A program made the position numbers and the translations under genes. Below the pieces are notes generated by a model. That model worked only from the letters and a program-made list of their open reading frames with translations, was not told where the DNA came from and did no database searches. From Modicisalibacter coralii (GTDB lineage Bacteria > Pseudomonadota > Gammaproteobacteria > Pseudomonadales > Halomonadaceae), in contig NZ_QWBW01000008.1 of the NCBI RefSeq assembly GCF_004117855.1, forward strand, positions 222,224 through 286,223: a stretch of 64,000 nt of DNA. Reading direction: 5' to 3'. This document shows positions 42,552 through 64,000 of this stretch, piece by piece. Within the stretch, counting starts at the first letter, position 1; each line of letters starts with the position of its first letter.

Positions 42552-42726
42552 TGTGAAGACGCCCCTCATGCTGGCGTCGCGATTCTGATATCCTTGGCGG
42601 CCTCGCTTAAGGAGCAGGACCGCCGAGCGAAGCGCCGACCGTTCGAGAGCCGTGAGCACGGACATCCAGGTGTCGCCCATCGGTGCCTGCAACCCCTTGT
42701 TACCCAACCATTTAGTGAGTGAGCGC

Positions 42727-44520
42727 ATGGCCACCCGTCAAGAAGCCACCGACTTGCAACGTGCCTTGAAGGCATGTCGGGGATCGTTCGTTTCGGTGGG
42801 GTTCTTCAGCATGTTCATCAATCTTTTGATGCTGGTGCCCCCCCTCTACATGCTGCAGGTCTACGACCGCGTCATTTCCTCGCGCAGCGCTGACACCCTG
42901 CTCATGCTGACCCTGGTGGTGATCTTCCTGTTCGCCGTCATGGGGCTGCTCGAACTGGTGCGTTCGCGGATCCTGATCCGTGTGGGCAACCGCCTGGACA
43001 CCATGGTCAACCAGCGCCTCTACAGCGCCATGTTCCGGCGCAGCGTCATGTCCCAGGGCCAGCAGTCCGCCCAGCCGCTCAACGACCTGACCAGCCTGCG
43101 CCAGTTTCTCACCGGCAACGGCCTGTTCGCCTTCTTCGACGCGCCCTGGGTGCCCATCTACCTGGCCGTGCTGTTTCTCTTTCACCCCTGGCTGGGCGTC
43201 TTCGCCACCTGCGCGGGCATCGTCCTGCTGACCCTGGCGATCGCCAACGAAAAGGCCACCAAGGGGCTGCTCTCCGAAGCCAATTCGGAAAACATCAAGG
43301 CCCAGGAACTGGCCAACTCCAACCTGCGCAACTCCGAAGTCCTGCACGCCATGGGCATGCTGCCCGGCATCATGGGCCGCTGGGCGAGCAAGCATCACGA
43401 ATTCCTCGCCAAGCAGTCCCAGGCCAGCGATCGCGCCGGTGCGCTCGCCAACGCCTCCAAGGTGCTGCGCATGCTGTTCCAGTCGATGATCCTCGGTCTG
43501 GGTGCCTTCCTGGTGCTCGAGGGCGAGATGACACCCGGCATGATGATCGCCGGCTCGATCCTCATGGGCCGGGCGCTGTCGCCGATCGACCAGATGATCG
43601 GCAGCTGGAAGGGCTTCGTCGCCTCGCGCAGCGCCTACAAGCGTCTCAACGAACTGCTCGAACAGATTCCCGAGGAGCAGCGGCGCATGTCGCTGCCGGC
43701 GCCCAAGGGCGACATCGACGTCGAGACGGTCGCCGCCGCGCCCCCGGGGGTACGCATGGCGACCATTCGCGGCATCAACTTCTCGGTGGGCAGCGGCGAG
43801 CACATCGGCATCATCGGCCCCAGTGCGGCCGGCAAGTCGACCCTGGCGCGCGTGCTGCTGGGCATCTGGCCCACCCAGGTCGGCAGCGTGCGCCTCGACG
43901 GCGCCGAGATCATTCACTGGAATCGTGACGAACTCGGCCCGCACATCGGCTATCTGCCCCAGGACATCGAACTCTTCGACGGTACCATCAGCGAGAACAT
44001 CGCCCGCTTCGGTCAGGTCGATGCCCAGAAAGTCGTCGCCGCCGCCCAGAAGGCCGGCGTGCACGAGATGATCCTGCAATTGCCCAACGGCTACGACACC
44101 GTCATCAGCGGCTCCGGCGGGGCGCTCTCCGGCGGCCAGCGCCAGCGCATCGGCCTGGCCCGGGCGCTCTACGGCAACCCGGTGCTGGTGGTGCTCGACG
44201 AGCCCAACTCCAACCTCGACGACAGCGGCGAGCGCGCGCTGGGCGAAGCGATCCGCCAGCTCAAGGCCGAAGGCACCACGCTGTTCGTGATCAGCCATCG
44301 CCAGAGCGTGCTCAAGCACGTCGATCAGTTGCTGGTCCTCAAGGAAGGTCAGGTCAGCATGTTCGGCCCGCGCGATCAGGTGCTGGCGCAGTTCGCCAAG
44401 CCCGCCGGCAGCGGCCGGTCGAGCCTGGCCGGCGGCAGCAAGTCGGGCAGCCGTCTCACCGCCGTGCAGGGCGGTGGCAACCAACCGGGCAGCGATTCGC
44501 AATCCTCGGAGCAGAACTGA
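42727..44520 (+). CDS. Type I secretion system permease/ATPase (PrtD/HasD-like)
   Basis: A 597-residue ABC exporter half-molecule. Membrane segments lie in residues 20-300; the ATPase domain has Walker A GPSAAGKST (364-372), signature ALSGGQRQRIGLARAL and Walker B VLVVLDEPNSNLD. There is no C39 peptidase or C39-like domain in front, so it belongs to the PrtD/HasD group that exports RTX proteases, lipases and S-layer proteins with C-terminal signals. A 40-residue Gly/Ser-rich tail is unusual. First gene of a three-gene operon, with the fusion protein starting two bases after its stop. Confidence 0.92.
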   Translation: MATRQEATDLQRALKACRGSFVSVGFFSMFINLLMLVPPLYMLQVYDRVISSRSADTLLMLTLVVIFLFAVMGLLELVRSRILIRVGNRLDTMVNQRLYSAMFRRSVMSQGQQSAQPLNDLTSLRQFLTGNGLFAFFDAPWVPIYLAVLFLFHPWLGVFATCAGIVLLTLAIANEKATKGLLSEANSENIKAQELANSNLRNSEVLHAMGMLPGIMGRWASKHHEFLAKQSQASDRAGALANASKVLRMLFQSMILGLGAFLVLEGEMTPGMMIAGSILMGRALSPIDQMIGSWKGFVASRSAYKRLNELLEQIPEEQRRMSLPAPKGDIDVETVAAAPPGVRMATIRGINFSVGSGEHIGIIGPSAAGKSTLARVLLGIWPTQVGSVRLDGAEIIHWNRDELGPHIGYLPQDIELFDGTISENIARFGQVDAQKVVAAAQKAGVHEMILQLPNGYDTVISGSGGALSGGQRQRIGLARALYGNPVLVVLDEPNSNLDDSGERALGEAIRQLKAEGTTLFVISHRQSVLKHVDQLLVLKEGQVSMFGPRDQVLAQFAKPAGSGRSSLAGGSKSGSRLTAVQGGGNQPGSDSQSSEQN

Positions 44521-44522
44521 GC

Positions 44523-45902
44523 ATGGCAGGCGACAACTCCACCAGTCACGACATCACCCCCTACGAGGAATCCATCGAAGGGGAATCGGTCTCCCGCGAA
44601 CCGGGCAAGAAGACGCTGCCGATCAACGACCGCGGCTATCGGCGTCTGGGCCTGCTGATCCTGCTGATCGCCTTCGGCGGCTTCGGCGGCTGGGCGGCGA
44701 CCGCCGACCTGGCCGTCTCCGTGGTCGCGCCGGGCTCGGTCTCGGTCGAATCGTTCAAGAAGACCGTGCAGCACCTGGAAGGCGGCATCGTCAAGGACAT
44801 CCTCGTCGAGGACGGCGACCACGTCGACGCCGGCCAGACCCTGATGATCCTCGACAAGACCCAGGCGCGCTCGCAGCTCGAGATCGCCCGCTCGCAGTAC
44901 CTGATCAATCGCGCCGCCGAAGTGCGCCTGATGGCCGAGCAGAAGGGCGCCGACTCGCTCGACTTTCCGGACGAGCTGCTCGCCAGCGACGCGCCGCGCG
45001 TCAAGGAAGTGCTCGCCGTGCAGCGCGCGCTGTTCCAGGCGCGCCGCGAATCGCTCCAGGGCACCCTCGACGCCCTCGGCGAGCAGGCCAACCAGATGCG
45101 CGAGCAGATCGACGGTCTGCAGAAGATGATCAACGTCAACCAGTCGCGCATGGCCTCCCTGCAGAGCGAGGCGCGCGATTACCGGGCGCTGTTCAAGGAA
45201 GGCCTGGGTGACAACCAGCGCCTGCGCGAACTCGAGCGCCAGGTGCTGCAGTTCAAGGGCGAGATCGCCCAGCACCGTTCCGAGATCGCCAAGCTCAAGT
45301 CGCAGATCAGCGAGAACAAGGTCCAGCAGCAGGTCAAGCAGCAGGAGTTCCAGAAGGAGGTCGGCGAGCAGCTGCGCGAGGCCCAGGCCAACATCGCCGA
45401 CGCCGAGGAGCGCATGACCGCGCTCAGCGACCAGGTCAAGCGCACCACCGTCACCGCGCCGGTCGCCGGTACCGTGGTCGGCATGACGATCCACACCATC
45501 GGCGCCGTCGTCAAACCCGGCGAGCCGATCATGAACATCGTGCCCTCCGGTGACGACTTCGTGGTCGAGGCCCGCATCCCCAGCAAGGACATCGACAACA
45601 TCTATCCGGGGCAGTACGCCGAGATCCGCTTCAGCGCCTTCAACCAGCGCCTGACCAACGTCATCGAAGGCGAGGTGACCAACGTCAGCGCCGACACCTT
45701 CAAGGACGAGGCCACCGGTACCCAGTACTACAAGGCCCGGGTCAAGGTGACGCCGAAAGGCAAGCGCGAGATGACCGAGAACATGCAGTTGCTGGCCGGC
45801 ATGCCCGCCGAAGTGATGATTCGCACCGGCGAGCGCACCTTCGCCAGCTACGTGGCCAAACCCATCACCGACATGCTGGCACGCGCCATGCGTGAGGAAT
45901 GA
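44523..45902 (+). CDS. Type I secretion membrane fusion protein (HlyD/PrtE family)
   Basis: A 459-residue adaptor: cytoplasmic N-terminus, one membrane helix (about 42-60), lipoyl/biotinyl half-motif VQHLEGGIVKDILVEDGDHVDAGQTL, a long coiled coil to about residue 300, then TAPVAGTVVGMTIHTIGAVVKPGEPIMNIVPS and a beta-barrel domain. It links the inner-membrane ATPase with the TolC-like channel encoded next and forms the periplasmic duct. Stop overlaps an in-frame ATG of the next gene. Confidence 0.92.
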   Translation: MAGDNSTSHDITPYEESIEGESVSREPGKKTLPINDRGYRRLGLLILLIAFGGFGGWAATADLAVSVVAPGSVSVESFKKTVQHLEGGIVKDILVEDGDHVDAGQTLMILDKTQARSQLEIARSQYLINRAAEVRLMAEQKGADSLDFPDELLASDAPRVKEVLAVQRALFQARRESLQGTLDALGEQANQMREQIDGLQKMINVNQSRMASLQSEARDYRALFKEGLGDNQRLRELERQVLQFKGEIAQHRSEIAKLKSQISENKVQQQVKQQEFQKEVGEQLREAQANIADAEERMTALSDQVKRTTVTAPVAGTVVGMTIHTIGAVVKPGEPIMNIVPSGDDFVVEARIPSKDIDNIYPGQYAEIRFSAFNQRLTNVIEGEVTNVSADTFKDEATGTQYYKARVKVTPKGKREMTENMQLLAGMPAEVMIRTGERTFASYVAKPITDMLARAMREE

Positions 45903-45904
45903 CC

Positions 45905-47440
45905 ATGGTCAAGCGATTCAAGCGACTCCCCCTGTACGGCCTGCTGGTCTCGGCGCCACTGGCCGCCCCGCTGGCCATGGCCCAGGGCGATGGCGGCATG
46001 CACTGGACCGACGAGCTGCCGGTCATGAACGGCCAGCCGGCGCCGGGTGACGCGGCCAGCGTTGCCGTCGGCGAGGCCGACGCGAGCGTCGCCGAGGGTG
46101 GCGCGTCGGCGTTGGGCAACGAAGACACGCTGCCCTCGCTGCCACGGCTGTTCGAACTCGCGCTGAGCAACGACGCCAAGCTGGCCAGCCAGCGCTACAA
46201 CGCCGAAGCCACCCAGCAGAACGTGCCGATGACCCAGGCCGGGCTCAAGCCGCAGGTCAGCGCCAGTGCCAGCTACCTCTACCAGCATTCGGACAACTAC
46301 TACACCGACAATCCCGAGTACAACCCGGACAACGAGCTCAGTAACGTCAGTGACGACTACGAGGCGCGCTACCAGGGCGTGACCCGGGACAAGACCTGGC
46401 AGGTCCAGGTCACCCAGCCGCTGTTCAGCCTCGAGCGCTGGCGCAAGGTGGGCAAGGCGGAAGCGCAGAGCGACGCCGCCACCCTCAAGGTGGCGGTGGG
46501 CGAGCGCGATCTCGCCCTCGATGTCGCCAAGGCCTACCTGGACGCCTTTCTCGCCTCGCGCAAGCTCGGCCTGCTCGACTCCAAGGAGAAATCGCTGGAG
46601 CTGCAGGTCAAGCAGGCGCAGCGCGCCTACGATCTCGGTGTCGGCGACCGTATCAATCTGCTCGAGTCGCGTTCGCGGCTCGACCAGGCCGTCTCCGACA
46701 AGCTGCAGGCCGAGAACGAGCTGGACAACGCGCTGAGCGTGCTCGAGCGTTTCACCGGCCAACTGCCCGAATTCACCGGCAGTCGGCTCGGCGACCTGGG
46801 CACGGTCGACCTCACCGGCGATTTCGGCGATGAGCAAGAGTGGCTCGACCGCGTCGTCAACAACGTCGAGGTCAAGCTGGGCAAGCAGCAGGAAGCGGTC
46901 GCCAAGGCCGAAACCGGGGTGCGCCGCGCCGGCCACTACCCCGAGCTGAACCTGAGCATGTCCTATTCCGACCGCGACTCCAACGACCCCTACCGCGAGA
47001 GCAAGGACGCTTCGGCCAGCCTGCGGCTCAACGTGCCCATCTACGAAGGCGGCTACACCACCGCCAGCGTGCGGCAGGGTGAACTCTCGCTGAAGGCCAG
47101 CCGCTCCACCTACGTCAACGCCCTCAAGATGGCGCGTCAGGAAGTGCGAACGCGGCTGCGCAGCCTCAAGGGCGACGCCCGGCAGATCGAGGCCCTGCAG
47201 CGCTCCGTCGACTCCAGCAACCTGTTCCTGGAAGCGGCCGAGAAGGGCGAGAAACTCGGGCTGCGCGATCTCGTCGACGTGCTCGACGCCCGCGCCGATC
47301 TCTACGACCAGCGCATCAAGCTCGTCGAGACCATTCGTCAGTACCTGCTCGATCGCCTCAACCTCAAGGCCGCGGTGGGCGACCTGGACACCCAGGATCT
47401 CGTCGATACCATGCAGGTACTGCGTCAGGTGACCGGGTGA
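45905..47440 (+). CDS. TolC family outer-membrane protein of the type I secretion system
   Basis: A 511-residue protein with signal peptide (about residues 1-26, PLAMA-QGD), then an acidic 60-residue segment absent from general TolC, and the two OEP repeats (VKQAQRAYDLGVGDRINLLESRSRLDQAVSDKL; AAEKGEKLGLRDLVDVLDARADLYDQRI). It resembles PrtF/TolC-like components dedicated to one exporter. GAGGA lies six bases before the ATG at 45905; an ATG at 45899 overlapping the previous stop is less favourable. Completes the three-part exporter. Confidence 0.9.
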   Translation: MVKRFKRLPLYGLLVSAPLAAPLAMAQGDGGMHWTDELPVMNGQPAPGDAASVAVGEADASVAEGGASALGNEDTLPSLPRLFELALSNDAKLASQRYNAEATQQNVPMTQAGLKPQVSASASYLYQHSDNYYTDNPEYNPDNELSNVSDDYEARYQGVTRDKTWQVQVTQPLFSLERWRKVGKAEAQSDAATLKVAVGERDLALDVAKAYLDAFLASRKLGLLDSKEKSLELQVKQAQRAYDLGVGDRINLLESRSRLDQAVSDKLQAENELDNALSVLERFTGQLPEFTGSRLGDLGTVDLTGDFGDEQEWLDRVVNNVEVKLGKQQEAVAKAETGVRRAGHYPELNLSMSYSDRDSNDPYRESKDASASLRLNVPIYEGGYTTASVRQGELSLKASRSTYVNALKMARQEVRTRLRSLKGDARQIEALQRSVDSSNLFLEAAEKGEKLGLRDLVDVLDARADLYDQRIKLVETIRQYLLDRLNLKAAVGDLDTQDLVDTMQVLRQVTG

Positions 47441-50083: not shown

Positions 50084-50914
50084 ATGAATCCTCACGCTTA
50101 CCAATCGGTTTCGCTTCCGGCGATGCTACAGCGCCTGTGGCGCTACCGGAACCTGACACGGCAGATGATTCAGCGGGACGTCGTCGGGCGCTACAAGGGC
50201 TCGGTGCTGGGTCTCGCCTGGTCGTTCTTCAATCCCATCATCATGCTGGGTGTCTACACCTTCGTCTTCACCGTGGTGTTCGAGGCGCGCTGGGGCATGA
50301 CCCCGGAAGGCGGCCAGGCGCACTTCGCCCTGCAACTGTTCGCCGGGCTGATCGTGCATAGCCTGTTCGCCGAAGTGCTCAACCGCGCCCCGGGGCTGAT
50401 CCTGGCCAACGAGAACTACGTCAAGAAGGTGGTTTTCCCGCTGGAGATCCTGCCACTGGTGCCGCTCGGTTCGGCACTGTTCCACGCCATGGTCAGCCTC
50501 GTCGTGCTGGTGCTGGCGCAGCTCGCGATCGACCACGACATACCCGCGACCCTGCCGCTCGCGCCGCTGGTCGCCTTGCCGCTGTGTCTGCTGGCGCTGG
50601 GCCTGGGCTGGATGCTGGCCTCGCTGGGTGTCTTCCTGCGCGACATCGGCCAGACCATGTCGCTGGTGACCACCATGCTGCTGTTTCTCTCGCCGGTGTT
50701 CTATCCGCTCTCCGCGCTGCCCGAGACGTTCCGCCCGTTCATTCTCGCCAACCCGCTGACCTTCATCATCGAACAGATGCGCCGGGTGGTGATCGCCGGG
50801 CAGATGCCCGACTGGCTGGGGTTGACGGCCTATGGCCTGGCGGCACTGGTCGTCGCCTGGCTGGGCTTCGCCTGGTTCCAGAAGACACGCAAGGGGTTCG
50901 CCGATGTGCTCTGA
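50084..50914 (+). CDS. wzm: ABC-2 polysaccharide export permease (Wzm-like)
   Basis: A 276-residue permease with six predicted membrane helices. RDVVGRYKGSVLGLAWSFFNPIIMLGVYTFVFTVVF near the N-terminus and NPLTFIIEQMRRVVIAGQ near the C-terminus are standard in Wzm/KpsM/TagG exporters of lipid-linked O-antigen or capsule. AGAGGG lies upstream of the ATG. Overlaps the ATPase gene by 11 bases, so the two form an exporter. Confidence 0.9.
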   Translation: MNPHAYQSVSLPAMLQRLWRYRNLTRQMIQRDVVGRYKGSVLGLAWSFFNPIIMLGVYTFVFTVVFEARWGMTPEGGQAHFALQLFAGLIVHSLFAEVLNRAPGLILANENYVKKVVFPLEILPLVPLGSALFHAMVSLVVLVLAQLAIDHDIPATLPLAPLVALPLCLLALGLGWMLASLGVFLRDIGQTMSLVTTMLLFLSPVFYPLSALPETFRPFILANPLTFIIEQMRRVVIAGQMPDWLGLTAYGLAALVVAWLGFAWFQKTRKGFADVL

Positions 50915-52355
50915 CAGTGTGCACGCCGCCGAGCGCGTGGCAGCGGAAACCGCCGGAGCCGGGGAGGGCGCCGCCCACGACGACGTGGCCATTCGCGTCG
51001 CCGACGTCGCCAAGTACTACCGGGTCTACGCCACCCCCCGCGACCGGCTCAAGCAGTTCATCGTGCCGCGCCTGCAGCGCCTGATCGGCCGGCCGCCGCG
51101 CGAGTACGGCCGCGACTTCCACGCCCTCGACGGCATCAGCTTCGAGATCGCCCGGGGCGAGACGGTCGGCATCATCGGCCGCAACGGCTCCGGCAAGTCG
51201 ACCCTGCTGCAGATGATCTGCGGCACGCTCGCGCCGACCCGCGGCGAGGTTGGCACCCGCGGGCGCGTCGCCGCGCTGCTCGAACTCGGCGCCGGTTTCG
51301 ACCCCGAGTTCACCGGCCGCGAGAACGTCTACATGAACGCCACGGTGCTTGGCCTGAGCCGCGAGGAGATCGACGCGCGCTTCGACGACATCCTGGCCTT
51401 CTCCGAGATCGGCGACTTCATCGACCAGCCGGTCAAGACCTACTCCAGCGGCATGTACGTGCGTCTGGCGTTCGCCGTCATCGCCCACGTCGACGCCGAC
51501 ATCCTGGTCATCGACGAAGCGCTCGCCGTGGGCGACGCCTTCTTCGTCCAGAAGTGCATGCGCTTTCTGCGCGACTTCATGAAGCGCGGCACCGTACTGT
51601 TCGTCAGCCACGACACCGCCGCGGTGCTCAACCTCTGCCAGCGGGCCATCTGGCTCGATGGCGGCAAGGTGGTCGCCGAGGGCGAGCCCAAGGACGTCGC
51701 CGACGCCTACCTGCAGGCCTTCTTCGAGTCCAACCAGGGCAGCGGCAGCGCCGGGCGCGCCTCGGCCGGTCCGCGCCAGGCCGAGCCGGCACCCCGCGAG
51801 CGCCGCGACATGCGCCAGGACCTGATCAACGCCTCGCCGTATCGCAACGACCTGGAAATCTTCGAGTTCGATCCCTCCGCCAGCGGCTTCGGCAAGGGGC
51901 ACGCCACCATCGAACACGTCGAACTCACCGACGCCGACGGCCGGCCGCTGTCGTGGATCGTCGGCGGCGAGACCGTCACGCTGCGGATTCGCGCCCGCGC
52001 CCAGAGCGGCGAGCCGCTGACGCGCCCGATCATCGGCTTCTACGTCAAGGACCGCCTGGGCCAGACCCTGTTCGGCGACAACAGCTTCCTGACGTACCGC
52101 GACGACCCCGTCGGCACCGCGCCCGGCCAGGCGTTGAATGCCGCTTTCACCTTCCGCATGCCGATTCTGCCCCGGGGCGACTACAGCATCAGCACCGCCA
52201 TTGCCGACGGCACCCAGGACGAGCACGTGCAGCATCACTGGATCCATGATGCGCTGTTCTTCAAGTCGCACTCCAGCAGCCAGAGCCACGGCCTCGTCGG
52301 CATTCCCATGCACGCCATTTCGCTAGAGGTTGATAGCCCGCATGAAGTCCAGTGA
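50904..52355 (+). CDS. wzt: ABC-type polysaccharide export ATPase with C-terminal substrate-recognition domain (Wzt-like)
   Basis: A 483-residue protein: an ATPase domain (Walker A GRNGSGKST at about residues 93-101, VKTYSSGMYVRLAFAVIAHVDADILVIDEALAVGD) in residues 20-270, a linker, then a beta-sandwich Wzt_C domain (about 300-475) with FGKGHATIEHVELTDADGRPLSWIVGGETVTLRIRA. In O9a-type systems the C-terminal domain binds the non-reducing terminal modification, often a methyl group, of the finished chain before export. The neighbour downstream begins with a methyltransferase, which could make that cap. Confidence 0.92.
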   Translation: MCSDSVHAAERVAAETAGAGEGAAHDDVAIRVADVAKYYRVYATPRDRLKQFIVPRLQRLIGRPPREYGRDFHALDGISFEIARGETVGIIGRNGSGKSTLLQMICGTLAPTRGEVGTRGRVAALLELGAGFDPEFTGRENVYMNATVLGLSREEIDARFDDILAFSEIGDFIDQPVKTYSSGMYVRLAFAVIAHVDADILVIDEALAVGDAFFVQKCMRFLRDFMKRGTVLFVSHDTAAVLNLCQRAIWLDGGKVVAEGEPKDVADAYLQAFFESNQGSGSAGRASAGPRQAEPAPRERRDMRQDLINASPYRNDLEIFEFDPSASGFGKGHATIEHVELTDADGRPLSWIVGGETVTLRIRARAQSGEPLTRPIIGFYVKDRLGQTLFGDNSFLTYRDDPVGTAPGQALNAAFTFRMPILPRGDYSISTAIADGTQDEHVQHHWIHDALFFKSHSSSQSHGLVGIPMHAISLEVDSPHEVQ

Positions 52356-55300
52356 TTCCAACGCCTTGCCCACGACGGGAGAACGTTTCCTGCCGGAGTT
52401 CGATGGCGGCATCGTCGCCGAGCACCAGCATCGCTACCGCCTGGCGCAACGCTATGTCGAGGATCGGGTCGTGCTGGATATCGCCTGCGGCGAAGGCTAC
52501 GGCTCGCATCTGCTGGCCGAGCGCGCGGCGCGGGTCATCGGCGTCGACATCGACGCCGACACCGTGGCCCATGCCCGGGCCGCCTACCCGGGCGACAACC
52601 TCGAATTCCTCATCGGCGACTGCGCGGCGATCCCCCTGGACGACGCCTCGGTGGATGTGGTGGTCAGCTTCGAGACCATCGAGCACCACGACCGCCACCA
52701 GGAGATGCTCGCCGAGATCCGCCGCGTGCTGCGCTCCGGCGGCCTGCTGATCATCTCCAGCCCCGACCATCACGAATACAGCGTGGTGCGCGATTTCGAC
52801 AACCCCTACCACGTGCGCGAGCTGAGCCGCGACGAGTTCGCGACCCTGCTCGGCGAGCACTTCGCCCACCACGCCCTGTTCGGGCAGCGCGTGGTCTACG
52901 GCTCGCTGGTGGTGCCCGAAAGCCGCGAGCCCACCGCCATGGTCACCTACGGCGGCGAGCGTGGCGGCAACGCCGGTGGTGCCGCCATCAACGGCCTCGA
53001 CGACCCCATGTACTGGATCGCCCTGGCCAGCGACGCCGAACTGCCGACGCTGCCGGCGAGCTGCTACCGCCAGGACATCGCCCACGCCGACGCCGTGATC
53101 GAACGCCAGCAGGCCCTGGATGCCGCCCGTGCCGCCCTGGAAGGCTACCAGGCCGCCGTCGACGAGCGCGATGCGCGCATCGCCGGCATGAACGAGGCCA
53201 TCGACGAGCAATCCCGCGCGATCGAGGCCCGCGATGCCCAGCTCGAGACCCTCCAGGCCGAGCGTGAGCGCCTCATCGCCGAGTGTGAGCGCCTCATCGC
53301 CGAACGCGACTGCTTGAGCGCCGAACAGGCCCGCCTGGAAGACGAGATCGCCCGGCTGGCCGATGACCTCGCCGAGGCCCGGGCCGAGCGCGACCGCGCC
53401 GTCGACGAGCGCCAGACCCTGGAAAGCCAACTGGTCGATCTCAACGGCCATTACTTCCGGCTGCAGGCCCGCGCCCAGTCGCCGGGCTGGCTGCTCAAGC
53501 GCCTGGTCAAGCGCGCCTGGCAATGGCCGGGCGAAGTCCGCCGTGCCCGTGACGAACGCCGGCAGATCGCCGAATCCGGCCTGTTCGATGCCGAGTGGTA
53601 CCGCCAGCACAACCCCGACGTGCACAGCCGTGGCCTCGACCCGCTGGCCCACTACCAGCGGCACGGCGGCTACGAAGGGCGTGCCGCCTCGGCGGAGTTC
53701 GACACCGCCAGCTACCTGCGCCAGCACCCCGAGCTGATCGACCGCCGCGAACACCCGCTGCTGCATTACCTGCGCAGCCGGCCGGGGCAGGGCAGCGAGG
53801 CCACGCACCACGCAGCCGGCGGCGACCGGCTGTTCCCGATCCTCTTCGAGGGCGCCGCCAAGCCCAGCGAACAGTACGTCGCGCCCACCGAGTACGCCCT
53901 GGACGGCGATACCCGCATGCGCGCCATCGCCTTCTACCTGCCGCAGTTCCACCCCATCGCCGAGAACGACCGCTGGTGGGGCAAGGGCTTCACCGAGTGG
54001 ACCAACGTCAGCAAGGCGGTGCCGCAGTTCATCGGCCACGAACAGCCGCGCCTGCCCGGCGAGCTGGGCTTCTACGACCTGCGCATCCCCGAGGTCCAGG
54101 AACGCCAGGTCGAACTGGCCCGCCAGCACGGCATCGAAGCCTTCTGCTTTCACTACTACTGGTTCAGCGGCCGCAAGCGCCTGCTCGAACGGCCCATCGA
54201 CCAGTACGTCGCCAACCCCAACATCGACTTCCCGTTCTGCCTGTGCTGGGCCAACGAGAACTGGACGCGGCGCTGGGACGGCCAGGAAAACGACGTGCTC
54301 ATGGAGCAGCGTCACGAGCCCCAGGACGACCTGGAGTTCATCGAGGACATCGCGCCGCTGCTCGAGGACCCGCGCTACCTGCGTGTCGACGGCAAGCCCG
54401 TGCTGATCGTCTATCGGGTCGACATCATCCCCGACGCCGCGCGCACCGCGCGCACCTGGCGCGAGTTCTGCCGCGAGCGCGGCATCGGCGAGCTGCACCT
54501 GGTCTGTGCCCAGAGCTTCGGCATCGGCGACCCAGAGCCCTACGGCTTCGACGCCGCCGTGGAATTCCCCCCGCACGCCCTGCAGGCCCGCCAGATCGAA
54601 GGCGAGCTGGAATTCCTCAACCACGAGTTCGCCGGGCGCGTCTACGACTACCGCGACGTGGTCGCCAGCCAGATCGCCAAGCCCCGCCCCGAATACCGGC
54701 TCTACCCGACGGTCTTCCCCGCCTGGGACAACGAGGCCAGAAAGCCCGGCCGCGGGCACATCTTCCACGGCGCCAACCCCGGCGACTACCGCCGCTGGCT
54801 CGACGACGCCTGCCGCCGCAGCGACGCCAACGCCGGCGACGGCCAACTGGTGTTCATCAACGCCTGGAACGAATGGGCCGAGGGCGCCTACCTGGAGCCC
54901 GACCGTCGCCACGGCTACGCTTTCCTGCGTGCCACCCAGGAAGTGCTCGCCCACTACCCGGCGGCGCACGAAGCGCCCCAGGGCATTGCCGACATGGCCG
55001 CCACGCCGCGCGCCCATGACACCGCCGTGATTCTGCATCTGTACTACCCCGAGATGTGGCAGACGGTGCTGCCCTGGCTCCGACAAATACCCGACGGCCA
55101 TGACCTCTTCGTGACGCTGGCCGAGGATGCCCCCGCCGACACCGAGCAGCGCCTCGCCGCCGACGTGCCCGGCGTGCGCACCGCCCGGGTGCCCAACCGC
55201 GGCCGCGACATCGCCCCCTTCCTGGAAGTGCTGCGCGCGATCCGCCCGCTCGGCTATGCGGCGGTGTGCAAGGTCCACGCCAAGAAGAGCCTGCACCGCA

Positions 55301-55908
55301 GCGACGGCGAAGGCTGGCGCGACGAGATGTTCCAGGCCCTGCTGGGTGACGCCGGGCGCATCGCCGAGATCCAGCGTGCCTTCGCCGACAACCCCGAGCT
55401 GGGGCTGGTCGGCCCCGCGGGGCACTGGCTGGCCTACCCGCGCTACTGGGGCATTCACCCGGAAAGCCCGGCCCATGTGCACCGCCTGCTCGAGACCCTG
55501 GGCGACGCCGAGCCGCTGGATACCATGCACTTCTTCGCCGGCTCGATGTTCTGGTGCCGCCCCGAGGCCCTGGACCCGCTGCTGAAGGCCGTGCACTGGG
55601 GCGACTTCGAACACGAGCTGGCGCAGACCGACGGCGCCCTCGGCCACGCCGTGGAGCGCATCCTCGCCCGCGCCGTGCAGACCGCCGGCTTCCGCGTCAC
55701 CGACAGCGACGCCCCGGCGCGGCTCGACCGCGCGCCCAGGGTGAATGACCGCTACGGCTACGCCGCCCCGTGCCCGCCGCCGGCGGACACCAGCGCCGAC
55801 TACGCCCCGCGCCAGTGGTCGGGGGCCAAGGCCCGGCTGCGACAAATTGCCCGGCAGAGCCCTTTGGCCCGACGTTTGCGGCGAGAAATCCTCAGCCGAA
55901 TCGGTTGA
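52342..55908 (+). CDS. Multidomain polysaccharide enzyme: methyltransferase / coiled coil / WbsX (GH99-like) / RgpF-like
   Basis: A 1188-residue cytoplasmic fusion. Residues about 1-220: SAM-dependent methyltransferase ([25 protein letters not shown]). About 245-385: coiled coil rich in Glu/Arg, a likely molecular ruler. About 413-480: two repeats of the FD-x-x-(W/S)Y..NPD..PL-x-HY type. About 526-875: WbsX/GH99-like domain ([54 protein letters not shown]). About 892-1130: rhamnan-synthesis RgpF-like domain ([29 protein letters not shown]). The organisation suggests building and methyl-capping of a rhamnose-type chain, read by Wzt's C-terminal domain. Starts within the end of wzt (14-base overlap). 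Confidence 0.88.
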   Translation: [1188 protein letters not shown]

Positions 55909-56375: not shown

Positions 56376-59300
56376 ATGGCAACGATTAATTTCGATTCGC
56401 AGTTCTATCTCGAACAAAAGCTGGCACAGCTTCAGAAGCAGGACAGCGCCGAGTACGGCGACTGGACCACTGAAAACGTGCAGCAGGCGTTCGACGATGC
56501 CGGCCTGACCGCCGAACAGCACTACGAAATGTACGGCTACATCGAAGGTCTGAGCCCGAACATCGAGTTCGATAGCACCGAATACCTGAAGGACAAGCTG
56601 GCCCAGCTCCAGGAATCCGGCGCGACCCAGGCCAACGGCGAAGCTTACGAAACCATCGCCGACGTCGCCAACGCCTTCCAGGCGGCTGGTCTTTCTCCGC
56701 TCGAGCATTACAACCAGTACGGCCAGGACGAAGGGCTGACCGCCACGCCGGTGACCACCACGCCGAAGCCGCCCACCCCGGATAACATCATCACCTTCGA
56801 TTCTTCCGAGAAGGACGGCACCGTCGTTACCGTTGACGACAGTGGCAACCTGCAGCTGACTCAGGAAGATCAGGGCGACCTCGTCAAGCACGTCGGCAAG
56901 GATTACCGTGACGAGAACGGCAGCTTCAACACCACCGCCGACTACCAGTTCACCCTGAGCAACCAGCTCAACTACGGTGAAGACGACGCCGCAACCACCG
57001 ACATCGATGAAAGCATCGATCTCTACCAGGCGACCTTCCTCAGCCCGCTGATGGTAGCGAGCGGTGGTCAGGATCAGGGTTCCGTACTGGACCTGCGTTT
57101 CGCCGATCGTCTGGCCCCGGCCGACGACACCACCGAAACGCTGAACAACACCCAGATCAACTACTTCGAGTTCACCGTCAACGGAACCAAGTACCAGATC
57201 AACGACGAGAACACCGATGGCGCGCTGAGCCAGGCCCGTGACTATCCGGAACTGCTCCAGGCCATCCAGACCGGTGTCGCCAACCTGAAAGCCGCCAATC
57301 CGGACCTCTCCGGCCTGAGCGCGCGTCAGGGCAACACCTTCTCCGTCGACCAGTACGACGAAGCCGATAACCTGACCGGCGAACAGGTCAAGGGTATCTC
57401 CGTCGTCCTGAGCCTCCAGGAAGGCGAACTCGGCGGCTTCACCGCCAACGTCTCCAGCGCCGATGAAGGCGGTGTCGACTCCTACGCCCGTGCCTTCAAC
57501 GAAATCACCGATGGCGTGGACGGTTTGATCCAGACCTCCATCGCGCTGGACAACGTCGGTTACGGTTCACAGGGCGGCAGCGTCAACATCGCCGGTGAGT
57601 CCAACACCAACGTGGGTATCGAGAAGTTCGTCGTCACCACCAAGAACGGTGCCTGGCTGACCGAGCTGTCCTCTTCTGACACTGACAACAACGGTGAGTA
57701 CAACCACCTGAAGGTCGTCGAAGTCAGCGGCAGCAGCTACTTCCGCGTCGGCCAGCAGAGCGCGACCTGGGGTCACAGCACCACCGCCGGTGAATACTTC
57801 ACCGCCAACGGCCAGACCGCCAACTGGGTCAGCCCGTTCGTCGCCGACCAGACCGGTGGTAACCAGGGCCTCAACGACGTTCAGGACCTCGACCTGACCG
57901 GCGTCGACAGCTCCGCGATCAACGCCGCCATCACTGATGCGGTCATCAATCGCGACCTCAATCTGGTTGACGTCAACGGCGACCCGGCCGACGACAACGT
58001 CGTCTACGAGTACGACCTGACCGGCGGCGACGACGTGCTGAACCTGAACGTCTCTGCCAACGTCCTCGAGCACGAAGATTTCGAACTCGAAATCGACACC
58101 GGTGCCGGCAACGACGTCGTTCACCTGAGCAACGGCCTGACCCAGGGCTCCGCTGCACTGGTCAACCAGCAGCTCAACGACAACGTCTCCATCGAGACGG
58201 GCGCTGGCAACGACCGCGTGTGGAGCGAAGGCAGCGGCAACGCCAACATCACTACCGGTGTGGGCGACGACCTGGTGCTGGCTGACAACAGCGGCGAGCA
58301 GACTCTGGAAGCAGGTGAAAGCGTCGTCGTTGGCACCGAGACTGTCGCAACTGCTGGCGACGCTTTCGGTACCAATGAAGGCCGTGCCCAGTTCGTCTTC
58401 AATAACGCGACGACGAACATTCGCGATCTCGAGTCCAACAGTAACGCGAACCTGTCCGATGGTGCCAACGGTACCGCACAGAGCTTCACCGTCGGTGGCC
58501 TGAACTCCAATGGTGGCACCCTGGTCGTCACTGCCAGCTTCATGGGCTACCAGGCGACTGCCAACATCGCCATCGCTGCCAGCAACGTCGACGGTAGCGG
58601 CAACGCCACCGTGACTGCGCTGCAGGTCAATCAGGCCATCAAGGAAGCCATCAACGGCGATGACGTCCTGAAGGAACTGCTGCTGGCCAAAGACGGTAAC
58701 GGCAACGCGCTGATCGTCGACTCCAAGATTGACGGTGAGCTGAGCCTGGACGACCTGAGCATCGGCTTCAGCGGGCAGAATCCCGACGGTACCGCTGCGA
58801 CCTATACGTTCTCTGATGGTAACGGCACCATCGATCTGGTTGACAACGATCCCAGCACCGACGGCATCTACGACACTGAGTTCGCTCAGGAAGCCGTGAC
58901 TAATGGCGGTACCACCACCCTGACCGATATCGTCGGCGATGACAGCGACGCGGAAAGCGACAACGTCATCAACGTGGGCGCTGGCACCGACGAGATCGTT
59001 CTCGGCACCGGCCAGTTCAGCAACGACACCGTGGCTTTCACCGGCTACAACAACGGTGTCAACACCATCGTCAACTTCACCGATGGCGCTCTTGTTCAGG
59101 GTGATGAAGGTAGCGGCACTGCGCAGCCGGAAATCGCTACGGTGACATTCTCTGGTGAAGCAACTGATGGTGACACCATTGACTTCAATGGCACCACTAT
59201 CACGCTGTCGGATTCCGATACCAGCGGTACGGTCGAACTCAGCGAGATCATCACCCAGCTGGCTGGTGGTACTTACACCGACTACACGGTATCCAACTCT

Positions 59301-59903
59301 GATACCGGCGCAGGTACCATCGAGTTCACCTCGACTGCCAACGCTGATCAGACCGATATCACCACTGGTGACTTCGCCTTCACGGACGCTGATACCAGCG
59401 GTAGTGACACCTTCTCGGCAGACAGTGTCAATGTGACTCAGCAAGGTGATGATGGCACAACTGCTCCGGGTAACGGTGCCGATATCCTCGACTTCACCAG
59501 CTATCTGCAGTCTACCACTGCATCGGGTGACGCTATCGCCACCACGCTGAATGGCGATACGACTGCCGAGGCTGACTCGGTGACCGTCCTCGACTTCAGC
59601 GGTGCGACTACCGATGAAACCTTCGCCAACCTGACCGCGCAGAACCTGCTGACGGCTCTGAACGGTGATGGTGACTATGCCGGTTTCGGTGACTCCGATC
59701 TGGACGCTGCCAGCATTGCTTCTGACGCCAGCGATGGTAACTACATCGTGATGGTCCAGAGCGACAGCAACGCCGGTGAGTACAAGGCATTCCACCTGAC
59801 CGCTAATGACGACGGCGCTGGCGACTTCGCCTCCGCGCAGTTGATCGGCACCATGGACTTCGGTTCTGAGCTGACCAACCTGAACGTCGACAACCTGGCG
59901 TAA
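56376..59903 (+). CDS. Large acidic secreted surface (S-layer-like) protein, type I secretion substrate
   Basis: A 1175-residue protein without cysteine or signal peptide, very rich in Asp, Asn, Gly and Thr. N-terminus: two repeats (about 5-62 and 67-122) of the form FD-S-x-(F/E)YL-x-x-KLAQLQ...AF..AGL..HY-x-x-YG-x-x-EG, then a Pro/Thr linker and a large beta-rich body. RTX-like calcium turns GAGNDVVHL (about 575), GAGNDRVWS (about 609) and GVGDDLVLA (about 627) are scattered, not a long array. The C-terminus (FGSELTNLNVDNLA) has no positive charge and fits a type I secretion signal. Codon choice suggests high expression. Export by the exporter at 42.7-47.4 kb is inferred. An alternative is a secreted adhesin. 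Confidence 0.82.
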   Translation: MATINFDSQFYLEQKLAQLQKQDSAEYGDWTTENVQQAFDDAGLTAEQHYEMYGYIEGLSPNIEFDSTEYLKDKLAQLQESGATQANGEAYETIADVANAFQAAGLSPLEHYNQYGQDEGLTATPVTTTPKPPTPDNIITFDSSEKDGTVVTVDDSGNLQLTQEDQGDLVKHVGKDYRDENGSFNTTADYQFTLSNQLNYGEDDAATTDIDESIDLYQATFLSPLMVASGGQDQGSVLDLRFADRLAPADDTTETLNNTQINYFEFTVNGTKYQINDENTDGALSQARDYPELLQAIQTGVANLKAANPDLSGLSARQGNTFSVDQYDEADNLTGEQVKGISVVLSLQEGELGGFTANVSSADEGGVDSYARAFNEITDGVDGLIQTSIALDNVGYGSQGGSVNIAGESNTNVGIEKFVVTTKNGAWLTELSSSDTDNNGEYNHLKVVEVSGSSYFRVGQQSATWGHSTTAGEYFTANGQTANWVSPFVADQTGGNQGLNDVQDLDLTGVDSSAINAAITDAVINRDLNLVDVNGDPADDNVVYEYDLTGGDDVLNLNVSANVLEHEDFELEIDTGAGNDVVHLSNGLTQGSAALVNQQLNDNVSIETGAGNDRVWSEGSGNANITTGVGDDLVLADNSGEQTLEAGESVVVGTETVATAGDAFGTNEGRAQFVFNNATTNIRDLESNSNANLSDGANGTAQSFTVGGLNSNGGTLVVTASFMGYQATANIAIAASNVDGSGNATVTALQVNQAIKEAINGDDVLKELLLAKDGNGNALIVDSKIDGELSLDDLSIGFSGQNPDGTAATYTFSDGNGTIDLVDNDPSTDGIYDTEFAQEAVTNGGTTTLTDIVGDDSDAESDNVINVGAGTDEIVLGTGQFSNDTVAFTGYNNGVNTIVNFTDGALVQGDEGSGTAQPEIATVTFSGEATDGDTIDFNGTTITLSDSDTSGTVELSEIITQLAGGTYTDYTVSNSDTGAGTIEFTSTANADQTDITTGDFAFTDADTSGSDTFSADSVNVTQQGDDGTTAPGNGADILDFTSYLQSTTASGDAIATTLNGDTTAEADSVTVLDFSGATTDETFANLTAQNLLTALNGDGDYAGFGDSDLDAASIASDASDGNYIVMVQSDSNAGEYKAFHLTANDDGAGDFASAQLIGTMDFGSELTNLNVDNLA

Positions 59904-59968: not shown

Positions 59969-59998
59969 AACCCCTCGGTCTTCGGGCCGGGGGGTTTC
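59969..59998 (+). terminator. Terminator after the surface-protein gene
   Basis: AACCCCTCGG pairs with CCGGGGGGTT (one wobble) across a TCTTCGGG loop, then TTCTCGTT. A first hairpin GACATCAC/GTGATGTC (59915-59937) lies 11 bases after the stop, so the 3' end has two stem-loops. Confidence 0.75.
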
Positions 59999-60183
59999 TC
60001 GTTGGTGGGGTGTCGCCAGCGATGCCAGGGTCGGTTTTCCGGCCCGCTTCGGTGGCTTACCCGGCACTGGGCGCGTTGGTGGCCTGGCAGCCGGTCAACG
60101 GGGTGTCGCGGTAGCATGGTGAGTCGCGGCGCCGAGGGGGCCAACCAGGCAAGCAAGCACGCTACACAAGCAGAGGAGGGAAC

Positions 60184-60774
60184 ATGACCAGTCCGATCAA
60201 TACCCATTTCGACAGGTACTATTACGTCGAGCAGAAGCTGGAACAGCTTCGCTCGGAGGATCCCGATCAGTACGGCGACTGGACCACCGAGGACGTCGAG
60301 CAGGCCTTCGAGGACGCGGGTCTCTCAGCTCGGGAGCATTACGCCACCTATGGCTTCCTGGAAGGCATCGATCCGAGCGCGGGGTTCGACACGCTCGGTT
60401 ATCTCGACGCGAAGCTGACTCAGCTCCAGGAAACCGGTGAAACCCAGGCCAACGGCGAGCCCTACGAGAATATCGCGGACGTCGCCAGCGCCTTCGTCGC
60501 CGCCGGGCTGTCGCCTGTCGAGCATTTTCACCGTTATGGCGTGTCCGAGGGGGTTCGGCCCCCCGAGTCGGATGGATTCGGCGAAACCTGGGTGTTCCCC
60601 GCCGAGCCGGACGCCGGCGAGTTTTCCGAGACCTATGTGTTCCCCACCGAGTCCGGTGCCGAAGGTGCGGAACAGCCCGCCCCGACGCTTGCCGAGCCGG
60701 CGAATGACGCCGTGGCCCTGGTGGGTGTCGCCGGTTCCCCGGCGGTGAGTCTGGACGACGGCAATATCGCCTGA
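60184..60774 (+). CDS. Short paralogue of the surface protein (N-terminal repeat domain plus tail)
   Basis: A 196-residue, cysteine-free acidic protein whose first 120 residues closely match the start of the 1175-residue neighbour (YYVEQKLEQLR, YGDWTTEDVEQAFEDAGLS, HYATYGFLEG; then a second repeat with QETGETQANGEPYENIADVASAF). The body is replaced by a short tail with a duplicated (GETWVFPAEPDAGE / SETYVFPTESGAE) motif and a hydrophobic end (ALVGVAGSPAVSLDDGNIA) that may be its secretion signal. AGGAGG lies six bases before the ATG. It could be an anchor, chaperone or competitor for the same ligand as the large protein. Confidence 0.8.
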   Translation: MTSPINTHFDRYYYVEQKLEQLRSEDPDQYGDWTTEDVEQAFEDAGLSAREHYATYGFLEGIDPSAGFDTLGYLDAKLTQLQETGETQANGEPYENIADVASAFVAAGLSPVEHFHRYGVSEGVRPPESDGFGETWVFPAEPDAGEFSETYVFPTESGAEGAEQPAPTLAEPANDAVALVGVAGSPAVSLDDGNIA

Positions 60775-60803: not shown

Positions 60804-60840
60804 GACGCCCCTCGGCCCCCGGGCCGGGGGGCGTCTCGTT
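60804..60840 (+). terminator. Terminator after the short paralogue
   Basis: A 15-bp stem GACGCCCCTCGGCCC / GGGCCGGGGGGCGTC with one wobble pair and a two-base loop, followed by TCGTT. Its right arm and tail resemble those of the terminator at 59969-59998. Confidence 0.8.
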
Positions 60841-60880: not shown

Positions 60881-61681
60881 ATGCCACGCTTTATTCCCCT
60901 GAGTACCGAACGTCACCGCGCCGATGGCTGGGCGAAGACGCCGGATTACGCCTTCGCCGTCGACCGGCCGATCGCCGAGCTGGTGGCCGAGGAGATTCCC
61001 CGCGCGCTGCCCACGCTGCCGCTGGCCTTCATGCCCGAGGGGGAGCAGTGGGCGCTGGTCGCGCTGCTCTCGCTGGACTCGCAACGCAACCTGTTCGTGC
61101 ACCCGGACGGGCGCTGGATGGGCGGCTACATTCCCGCCGCGTTTCGCGGTTATCCGTTCGCCCTGCTGCACGACACCGAGGGCGGTCGCCGCATGCTGGG
61201 CTTCGATGCGGACAGCGGCCTGTGGGTGGAGGGCGCCGAGGAGGAGCGCCGCTTCTTCGATGACGAGGGCAAGCTGAACCAGCCGGTGGAGCGGGTGATG
61301 ACCTTCCTGCGTCAGTACGACGATCAGCGCCGCGCCACGCGGCGTGCCGTCACCGCGCTGGCCGAGGCCGGGGTGGTGGTGCCCTGGGCGTTCTCGGTCA
61401 AGGACGAGGCGGGCAATGCCCGGCGTGTCGAGGGGGTCTATCGCACCGACGAGGCGGCGCTCAAGGCGCTGCCCGGCGAGACCCTGAGCGAGCTGGCCGC
61501 CAGCGGCGCCCTGGCCATCGCCTACGCCCAGCTCTATGCTCAGCATCGCCTGCCCGGGCTGACGCGGCTGGCCGAGCTGCAGGCCAAGGTGGGCGAACAC
61601 CGCCAGGCCGGCGAGTCGGTGGACGTCGAGCGGCTGTTCGACGGCGACGACGAGGAACTGACCTTCGATTTCGGCGACTGA
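60881..61681 (+). CDS. SapC family protein
   Basis: A 266-residue soluble protein matching SapC, a family named from the Campylobacter fetus S-layer locus. The start (FIPLSTERHRADGWAKTPDYAFA) and the central block (QWALVALLSLDSQRNLFVHPDGRWMGGYIPAAFRGYPFALL) are typical, and the DEGKLNQPVERVMTFLRQYD segment follows. No signal peptide or membrane segment; presumably cytoplasmic. Its job is unknown, but it often accompanies genes for type I secreted surface proteins. GAGGAG lies four bases upstream of the ATG. Confidence 0.87.
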   Translation: MPRFIPLSTERHRADGWAKTPDYAFAVDRPIAELVAEEIPRALPTLPLAFMPEGEQWALVALLSLDSQRNLFVHPDGRWMGGYIPAAFRGYPFALLHDTEGGRRMLGFDADSGLWVEGAEEERRFFDDEGKLNQPVERVMTFLRQYDDQRRATRRAVTALAEAGVVVPWAFSVKDEAGNARRVEGVYRTDEAALKALPGETLSELAASGALAIAYAQLYAQHRLPGLTRLAELQAKVGEHRQAGESVDVERLFDGDDEELTFDFGD

Positions 61682-61792: not shown

Positions 61793-62083
61793 ATGGCCGA
61801 CAACGACCAGACCGTCACCATCGACGGCAAGGATTATCAGCTGGACCAGCTCAGCGAGGAGGCTCGCAAGCAGTTGGCCAACCTGCGCCTCTGCGACGAG
61901 GAAATCGCCCGCATCCAGCGTCAGTACGGCATCGCCCAGGCGGCGCGGGTCACCTACTCCAACCTGCTCGAGCGTGCGCTGCCCGATGACAAGGCGCCCG
62001 CCAAGCGCGCCACCAAGAGCACGGCACGCAACGGCACGGCCAAGAAGACGACCGCCAGCCGGAGCAAGAAAAGCGGCGAGTGA
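61793..62083 (+). CDS. DUF6447-like small protein
   Basis: A 96-residue protein: an N-terminal beta hairpin (VTIDGKDYQLDQLSEEARKQLANLRLCDEEIARIQRQYGIAQAARVTYSNLLERALP) followed by a lysine/threonine-rich tail. The pattern resembles DUF6447, small proteins of unknown function often seen beside type I secreted giant or S-layer proteins; the match is by memory. AAGGA lies nine bases before the ATG. A clear intrinsic terminator ends the transcript. Confidence 0.72.
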   Translation: MADNDQTVTIDGKDYQLDQLSEEARKQLANLRLCDEEIARIQRQYGIAQAARVTYSNLLERALPDDKAPAKRATKSTARNGTAKKTTASRSKKSGE

Positions 62084-62427: not shown

Positions 62428-64000
62428 ATGGCCTTACAGGGTTTCGATAAGGACTATTACCTCAACGCCAAACTCGACGCGCTTCAGAATGATCCCGATG
62501 CCGATGCGGCATGGCAGGGACGCACCACCGCCGATCTGGAGAACATCCTCCAGAACGATTACGGCCTCACCCCGGAACAGCACTACGCCCGTTACGGTTA
62601 CCAGGAAGACCTGGCCCCCAACGCCTATTTCAATGCCGAGGAATACGTTCAGGCCAAGGCACGTGACATGGTCGACAACGGCGATGTCGCTACCGTGACC
62701 GAAGCCCGTGGTGAATTCGAGGCGCGCTGGCAGGGCAACCCCTACGAGCATTATCTCCAGTACGGTGCCAGCGAAGGCATCAACCCCTCCAATGACTTCG
62801 ATGCGTCCGCCTACTACGCGGAAAAGCTGGACGCGCTCCAGAACGACCCCGAGACGGCCGAGGAATGGTCCGGCAAGAGCGTTGATGACGTTCAGCAGGC
62901 GTTCGCCGATGCCGGGCTGACGCCGCTGGGGCATTTCGTCGCTTATGGTGACGAGGAAAACCTGACCGCACCGGAAGTGCCGGCGGGCGAGGATGTGCCG
63001 GGCGAGGACGATGAGCAGCCGCCCACGGATGGCGGCGGCGAGGAACCGCCCACGGATGGCGGTGGCGAGGAACCGCCCACGGACGGCGGTGGCGAGGAAC
63101 CGCCCACGGACGGCGGCGATGACACCATCACCGACGACGAGATCCTCGAGGTCGATGGCCAGAATCTCGCAAGCTCCTACGATTTCAATGCCGCCGAGCT
63201 GGATGGCTACCGCGCGATCCGCTTCTCCAATGTCGACACGACCGACACGGTCAACATCGACAACCTGGGCGCCGACAATCGCCTGTATACCGTCGACAGT
63301 GCCCTGGCGCTGAATATCGCTGCCGCGTCGGCCGCGCAACTGGACCTCACCAACAGTGACGTGACCCTGTTCGGTCAGCAGGACACACCGGTGCTCGATA
63401 CCCTGGATGTCGTCGCCCAGGCGGGCGATGGCTCGGGGTCGACCCTGGATCTGGGTGGCTCGGCGGCGGATGCCCTGACGGGCATGACTCTGTCGGGGGC
63501 CGGCGATCTGACCCTGGCGGGCAGCACCATCGGCGCGCAGGCGACCGAGGCGAGCACCATCGACGCCACGGCGATGACCGGCTCGCTGACCGCGGGTGAC
63601 GGCATTCTGGACGCGGTGGCCAGCGTGCAGGCGGGTAGCGGCGACGACGCCCTGACGCTCGACAGCGTGGCGGCGCCCGTCGATGGCACGGCGCCGATGC
63701 TCGACGGCGGCGCCGGCAACGATACGCTGACCGTGACCGGCAGCGACGACATCGGTTCCAGCGATGTCAGCGGCTTCGAGACGCTCGAACTCGGCAGCTA
63801 TGTCGATGTCGATGCCAACGCCGTCGACGGCGTCACGAACTTCGTCGTCGGTGCCGCGGGCAGCGAGGTCCAGAACTTGGCCGCCGACCAGACCGTCACC
63901 TCGCGGGTCGACCAGGCCCCCGATGAGGCTCCCGAGCTGAACCTGCGCGACGCAGCGGAGAGCGTTTCGGTGGTCACGGACTTTGCCGGACCGGCCCAGG
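62428..64000 (+). CDS. Third paralogous surface protein, type I secretion substrate (partial, runs off window)
   Basis: The first 524 residues of a larger protein. It opens with three copies of the shared domain: FDKDYYLNAKLDALQ..HYARYGYQEDL, YFNAEEYVQAKARD..HYLQYGASEGI, FDASAYYAEKLDALQ..HFVAYGDEENL. Then come a PPTDGGGEE tandem linker (63019-63117) and a Ala/Asp/Gly/Thr-rich repetitive beta body (DALTGMTLSGAGDLTLAGS; GGAGNDTLTVTGSDD) like S-layer and RTX proteins. No cysteine in the visible part. Same presumed fate as the 1175-residue protein: type I export and surface assembly. No stop before the window end. Confidence 0.85.
   Translation, partial: MALQGFDKDYYLNAKLDALQNDPDADAAWQGRTTADLENILQNDYGLTPEQHYARYGYQEDLAPNAYFNAEEYVQAKARDMVDNGDVATVTEARGEFEARWQGNPYEHYLQYGASEGINPSNDFDASAYYAEKLDALQNDPETAEEWSGKSVDDVQQAFADAGLTPLGHFVAYGDEENLTAPEVPAGEDVPGEDDEQPPTDGGGEEPPTDGGGEEPPTDGGGEEPPTDGGDDTITDDEILEVDGQNLASSYDFNAAELDGYRAIRFSNVDTTDTVNIDNLGADNRLYTVDSALALNIAAASAAQLDLTNSDVTLFGQQDTPVLDTLDVVAQAGDGSGSTLDLGGSAADALTGMTLSGAGDLTLAGSTIGAQATEASTIDATAMTGSLTAGDGILDAVASVQAGSGDDALTLDSVAAPVDGTAPMLDGGAGNDTLTVTGSDDIGSSDVSGFETLELGSYVDVDANAVDGVTNFVVGAAGSEVQNLAADQTVTSRVDQAPDEAPELNLRDAAESVSVVTDFAGPAQ
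63019..63117 (+). repeat. In-frame tandem repeat encoding PPTDGGGEE
   Basis: Three full 27-base units (starting 63019, 63046 and 63073) and a fourth that diverges after PPTDGG; nearly identical at DNA level. Encodes a flexible acidic linker and could change copy number by slippage. Confidence 0.9.

Follow-up and report, generated by a model that had tools for sequence, protein, structure and literature searches.

In the window, that is, the whole stretch of 64,000 nucleotides that was analysed, the gene of a 196-residue protein (denoted here as SMALL) follows that of a 1175-residue surface protein (BIG) and precedes a SapC-family gene, a DUF6447-like gene and the gene of a second large surface protein (THIRD); a type I secretion system, a Wzm/Wzt exporter and a glycosyltransferase are encoded upstream (Table 1). 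The type I exporter of the SMALL/BIG locus is complete, with its PrtD, HlyD and TolC components all above the cut-offs of their TIGR models. Of 14 named control genomes, Caulobacter vibrioides, the species of RsaA, was the only one in which a SapC-family member was found.

Table 1. Features of the locus (positions in the window)
Feature	Position	Strand	Remarks
Type I secretion ATPase, PrtD family	42652..44520	+	TIGR01842, 796 bits, cut-off 510
Type I secretion adaptor, HlyD family	44523..45902	+	TIGR01843, 410 bits, cut-off 209
Type I secretion TolC	45899..47440	+	TIGR01844, 233 bits, cut-off 225
Wzm/Wzt polysaccharide ABC exporter, two genes	50084..52355	+
Methyltransferase-WbsX-RgpF glycosyltransferase	52330..55908	+	short FD...HY..G repeats by eye
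BIG, 1175-aa surface protein	56376..59903	+	same N-domain as SMALL, plus body with GxGxD motifs
Terminator-like element after BIG	59971..60003	+
SMALL, 196-aa protein	60184..60774	+	two-repeat helical N-domain (residues about 6-127) and acidic 69-residue tail
Two-repeat N-domain of SMALL, residues 6-127	60199..60564	+	repeat-profile matches and helix prediction
Tail of SMALL, residues 128-196	60565..60771	+	no K/R/C/H; duplicated GETWVFPAE/SETYVFPTE; weakly type I-like C-end; low-confidence structure
Terminator-like element after SMALL	60808..60840	+	85% identical to element after BIG
SapC-family gene	60881..61681	+	PF07277, E 3.7e-55 (scanned from 60848)
96-aa protein, DUF6447-like	61793..62083	+	below Pfam cut-off; related proteins encoded next to SapC in several other genomes
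THIRD, second large surface protein, three N-repeats	62428..63999	+	extends beyond window; complete 721 aa in L035:152-2317

SMALL is a real gene. Its frame is open from ATG to TGA, an AGGAGG ribosome-binding site lies directly 5' of the start codon, and the log-odds per codon (domain, 0.43; tail, 0.41) resemble those of other genes, the median over 55 genes of the window being 0.46; a promoter search gave no match. In Pfam, NCBIfam and PHROG nothing matched the protein above the cut-off (one Pfam match, with E 0.13, lay below it), a plasmid search was equally negative, and none of 156 pattern matches in viral contigs was confirmed.

Cys is absent from SMALL, BIG and THIRD, and all three are strongly acidic, with Asp+Glu to Lys+Arg ratios of 38:7, 192:30 and 143:17, respectively; the pI computed for all of them was 4.05, which we take to be the floor of the calculator, and pI values were therefore not used. 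GxGxD motifs number five in BIG and two in THIRD, and none was found in SMALL. Judging from its acidity, the lack of Cys, the five GxGxD motifs and the type I exporter in the locus, BIG is probably an exported surface protein. Its first domain is probably the cell-attachment end.

Two further features of the locus were observed. The motif GCATATG occurs three times inside TTGCATATGCAAGGAG (56353-56366, 5' of BIG) and stands ahead of the start codon in 7 of 11 regions lying 5' of domain genes, SMALL and THIRD being without it; these repeats possibly form an mRNA hairpin at the ribosome-binding site. In addition, the WbsX/RgpF glycosyltransferase carries FD...HY..G..EG repeats that, by eye, resemble those of the surface proteins, so the enzyme and the surface protein may share a ligand-binding motif.

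The N-terminal domain and the tail of SMALL

The initial annotation had described SMALL as a minimal paralogue of its large neighbour, made almost only of the two-repeat N-terminal domain of the latter. The homology was confirmed: residues 6-125 of SMALL match BIG with E 4.9e-46, far beyond chance, with both repeats in the order in which they occur in BIG and an identity of 58% over the N-domain (54% to the Kushneria copy), and the neighbour is itself a probable type I-secreted protein. The wording "almost only" proved too strong, as the tail accounts for 69 of the 196 residues. The repeat profile matched SMALL at residues 9-65 (E 6e-28) and 68-127 (E 7e-29), although both repeats are among the seven seeds of that profile and the independent figure is the E of 4.9e-46 given above. 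SMALL falls within the FD-repeat N-domain family, characterized by at least two repeats of about 55-60 residues with F-D, Y-L, K-L, H-Y and G..EG positions, and it keeps the invariant alignment columns of the domain.

The domain is predicted to be all-helical, with seven helices, and the prediction has high confidence over most of residues 10-127 (pLDDT 67-96 per 10-residue block after residue 10). Searching the PDB by sequence yielded nothing credible for SMALL, and no match to RsaA or to any carbohydrate-binding protein. Fold searches were carried out with two models, one of the whole protein and one of the domain alone, the latter against the PDB only: Foldseek gave no match at E <= 0.001 in PDB or BFVD, and the best VIA score was Z 3.0 over 45 residues. 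This failure is evidence neither of a new fold nor, through the absence of RsaA from the lists, against a likeness to RsaA.

The helical N-domain of RsaA binds O-antigen, also when added alone to cells without RsaA (PMC6978808), and in a published analysis residues 16-104 of a Halomonas DUF4214 protein aligned to RsaA (PMC11970703). A DUF4214 module is also found at the N-end of SapC-linked large surface proteins in two genomes of our set (G003 and G009). The argument that the domain of SMALL and BIG would attach to a polysaccharide is thus one from position, not from homology. Near SapC in the same two genomes (L097, L098, L100), large surface proteins start with DUF4214 or with short NPDV-type repeats, that is, with modular heads. 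In the genome of SMALL itself, the repeat is present in two copies, well away from the N-end, in two very large proteins on contigs C7 and C27 (L036:8296-13047 and L037:3945-7103).

The tail contains 14 Asp/Glu among its 69 residues and not a single Lys, Arg, His or Cys. The duplicated motif reported in it is present, GETWVFPAE and SETYVFPTE being identical at 6 of 9 residues when read directly. When the tail alone was compared with 275 genomes of the family, the best non-self match had E 0.005 and 37 other genomes gave values of 0.005-0.1, which we take as chance matches due to composition; no convincing match was found in those 275 genomes.

The possible secretion signal that had been suggested is not of the Sec type: the highest 15-residue Kyte-Doolittle mean from residues 1-26 was -0.6. 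Type I exporters read the C-end of their substrates, not an N-terminal module. The C-ends of large family proteins, 16 of which were aligned, share a motif of the approximate form D..h.L.G with 11 to 21 residues after it, and SMALL ends in NDAVALVGV plus 14 residues. With the corrected C-end matrix, which gives our main figure and not a proof and has one doubtfully anchored row (L031), SMALL came 21st among 273 distinct gene ends; 14 of the higher-ranked ones are of the type I kind, and 6 gene ends that are not of this kind equal or beat its score. The same score was matched by 259 of 10,000 shuffled tails (2.6%) and by 47 of 1932 internal pseudo-ends. A profile HMM test gave 62 shuffles scoring at least as high as SMALL among 1982 scored (2000 made), and an earlier matrix, in which two rows were misanchored, gave 296 of 5000. 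These figures lend a slight weight to the proposal that the tail directs export and to a C-terminal type I signal; judged from the context of the locus, type I export of SMALL is likely.

Probable duplication, selection and occurrence in relatives

The regions 3' of BIG and SMALL aligned better than 500 of 500 shuffles and include terminator-like elements with 85% identity over 33 nt. A pattern shared by the two sites was searched in the 4.44 Mb genome; as the pattern was written from these sites, their exact match is by construction, and no third site had fewer than two mismatches, the next best one having two. As a control, the reversed pattern was searched with up to three mismatches allowed, and it had 2 matches. 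No similarity was seen between the 5' regions of the two genes (425 of 500 shuffles as good), and at the DNA level their coding 3' ends are not alike beyond chance (40 of 500). The region after Kushneria BIG bears no likeness to that after SMALL (304 of 500 shuffles as good) and a weak one to that after BIG (14 of 500). Since BIG and SMALL share the 33-nt element and no comparable third copy was seen, the simplest story would be a tandem duplication of BIG together with its 3' element, followed by loss of the body; no second copy of the body of BIG was found in the genome. The identity of the elements (85%) exceeds that at third codon positions (50%), and hairpin selection or a later exchange may therefore contribute to it. 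As for the date, the three tree topologies, with SMALL splitting before or after Kushneria, lie within 0.22 log units, so that the duplication cannot be dated relative to the Kushneria split.

The domain of SMALL evolved under purifying selection. Over 123 codons, its branch has a dN of 0.206 and a dS of 1.089, with a ratio of 0.19 (bootstrap 0.08-0.48), similar to that of the BIG branch (dN 0.086, dS 0.413, ratio 0.21); pairs with SMALL are Nei-Gojobori estimates with dS near saturation. Neutral evolution over the same nucleotide distance was simulated 300 times: protein identity did not exceed 0.46 (observed, 0.59), pN/pS never fell below 0.66 (observed, 0.37) and 18 sequences were stop-free. 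Decay with neutral substitution rates, which the initial annotation had named as the finding that would speak against its proposal, was thus not seen in the domain. Long neutral decay is refuted. The data are compatible, however, with a protein that was long selected as part of a larger one and became functionless recently, and the selection seen in the domain may predate the loss of the body. The SMALL branch is two to three times as long as that of BIG (0.57 vs 0.18 in the tree; 23 vs 9 unique residues, a comparison that would read as a relative rate only if Kushneria were the outgroup). As it is longer in both dN and dS, SMALL is either faster or older.

Matches to P0001 were found in 15 of 275 family genomes, the own one included, and 10 of them besides the own one have clear copies of the domain; this count leaves out four weak genomes (G069, G072, G073 and G163, best E 1.4e-4 to 4.4e-4). 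The first search scored at most about a dozen candidates per genome (11 of 23 in G001, where another pass scored all 24), so that weak copies may be missed. In wider draws from the order (390 genomes) and the class (369 genomes), the domain profile matched 5 and 2 genomes, respectively, at E <= 0.001, the own genome being counted in both, and the full two-repeat match was seen only in the own genome and in G014, the others being weak partial matches.

A conserved order of large and small paralogues was not observed: in none of the 10 relatives did the stretches examined contain an intact free-standing copy of the domain beside the large gene, among frames of at least 60 residues. On present data, the pairing is therefore lineage-specific, SMALL being so far found in one genome only, and SMALL is apparently a maintained, lineage-restricted minimal paralogue. 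The large gene directly adjoins SapC in six relatives (G001, G002, G035, G156, G168 and G245), whereas G242 has a called frame of 58 residues, lacking the repeat, between the two; the distance is greater in G014 and G060, and in G165 SapC lies on a different contig. SapC comes directly after BIG in Kushneria aurantia, with 117 bases from the BIG stop to the called SapC start. Wzm/Wzt homologues are found beside the large gene in 9 of the 10 relatives.

Several other arrangements were noted. Short proteins of 278, 353 and 432 residues with one to three repeats occur on other contigs of G001, G014 and G168 (L033:5197-6033, L034:6163-7224 and L063:6242-7540), followed by similar small genes; their regions are perhaps prophage, and no convincing PHROG match was found for the proteins. 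A 137-residue open frame in G035 was considered as a second SMALL and rejected by eye as a piece of a broken large gene, and the large surface-protein gene of that genome (L027:11343-13840) appears, also by eye, to be interrupted within the N-domain, where it has a stop and a change of frame. G014 has two opposed copies of a large surface-protein gene, the inverted one being without the N-domain (L030:7030-11562); at the domain/body junction, each copy bears one arm of a 27-nt inverted repeat (93%; 7414-7440 and 11536-11562). Phase-variable S-layers swap bodies behind a fixed head by inversion, and an inversion at this repeat would do the same.

Possible roles of SMALL

The reading that we tentatively prefer, and to which we give a little less than an even chance, is that SMALL is an exported protein devoted to attachment, which would bind the same surface ligand as BIG without joining the putative lattice. 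SMALL would go back to an old tandem duplication of BIG and have diverged since; of BIG it would retain the N-terminal attachment module and the 3' element but not the body, and it bears an acidic tail. It would be expressed alongside BIG, and its C-end would take it out of the cell through the PrtD/HlyD/TolC system encoded in this locus. Its two-repeat domain would then bind what BIG binds on the outer surface, for which the Wzm/Wzt-exported polysaccharide is the most likely candidate; without a body it would be unable to join the lattice, and it might tune the density of BIG attachment, serving as a spacer, gap filler or competitor. The roles raised by the initial annotation, namely capping, anchoring or nucleating the lattice or regulating export, look alike at the level of sequence. 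That SMALL is a natural, secreted, anchor-only surface-layer protein of a Gram-negative type I locus which, from the polysaccharide sites of the lattice protein, caps edges, fills gaps or sets lattice density, is a more specific proposal that we regard as fairly unlikely.

A somewhat unlikely alternative is that SMALL is a young remnant, left when a second full-length copy of BIG, long under selection, lately lost its body, the rest being functionless and decaying. Its restriction to one genome, its longer branch and the existence of broken or partial copies in relatives (that of G035, the headless copy of G014 and pieces in G001) would fit such a history. However, the intact frame, the good ribosome-binding site and the terminator-like element of its own argue against decay, as does a tail whose codon usage is as good as that of the domain and which resembles no piece of BIG among the blastn matches listed, with coding 3' ends at chance level.

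Quite improbable, in our view, is a cytoplasmic role in which SMALL, paired with BIG or with the exporter, acts with SapC to regulate or assist export. The position of the gene directly 5' of SapC, the absence of a Sec signal and the weakness of the type I C-end are in its favor, but the domain that was kept is the N-terminal module and not the end that exporters read, and relatives have the large gene and SapC without SMALL. Finally, the N-domains of Campylobacter fetus surface-layer gene families are exchanged by recombination, and the inverted repeat of G014 makes rearrangement plausible in this family, but a role of SMALL as a donor cassette for the head of BIG is most improbable given a DNA identity between both genes of 70% over 300 nt, their direct orientation and the lack of a second body in the genome.

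One of the closest known systems is RsaA of Caulobacter crescentus, which shares a helical N-terminal module (predicted in SMALL) and combines type I export with a polysaccharide anchor, its isolated N-domain binding O-antigen on cells (PMC6978808). SMALL differs from it in that the module is encoded naturally with no lattice body, the protein ending 69 residues after the domain, in having a putative ligand and in giving no sequence or fold match to RsaA in our searches. The SapC-linked DUF4214-type surface proteins of Halomonadaceae occupy the same kind of locus, but they are large, their N-module belongs to another family, and no free-standing FD-repeat copy was seen in those loci. Those Gram-positive S-layer-associated proteins that share the anchoring domain of the S-layer carry a functional domain of their own and are exported by Sec. 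The likeness lies in an accessory protein with the anchor of the lattice protein, whereas SMALL consists of an anchor and a tail and is encoded in a Gram-negative type I locus. In a literature covering mainly open-access texts, and hence as weak evidence of absence, we recognised no free-standing N-domain paralogue in such a locus.

Should SMALL be a remnant, it would record how such loci duplicate and lose parts. If it is exported and binds, it would represent a very small test substrate for the PrtD/HlyD/TolC exporter, would be a natural counterpart of the isolated RsaA N-domain of the laboratory and would offer a handle on the control of lattice density and edges in Gram-negative S-layers.
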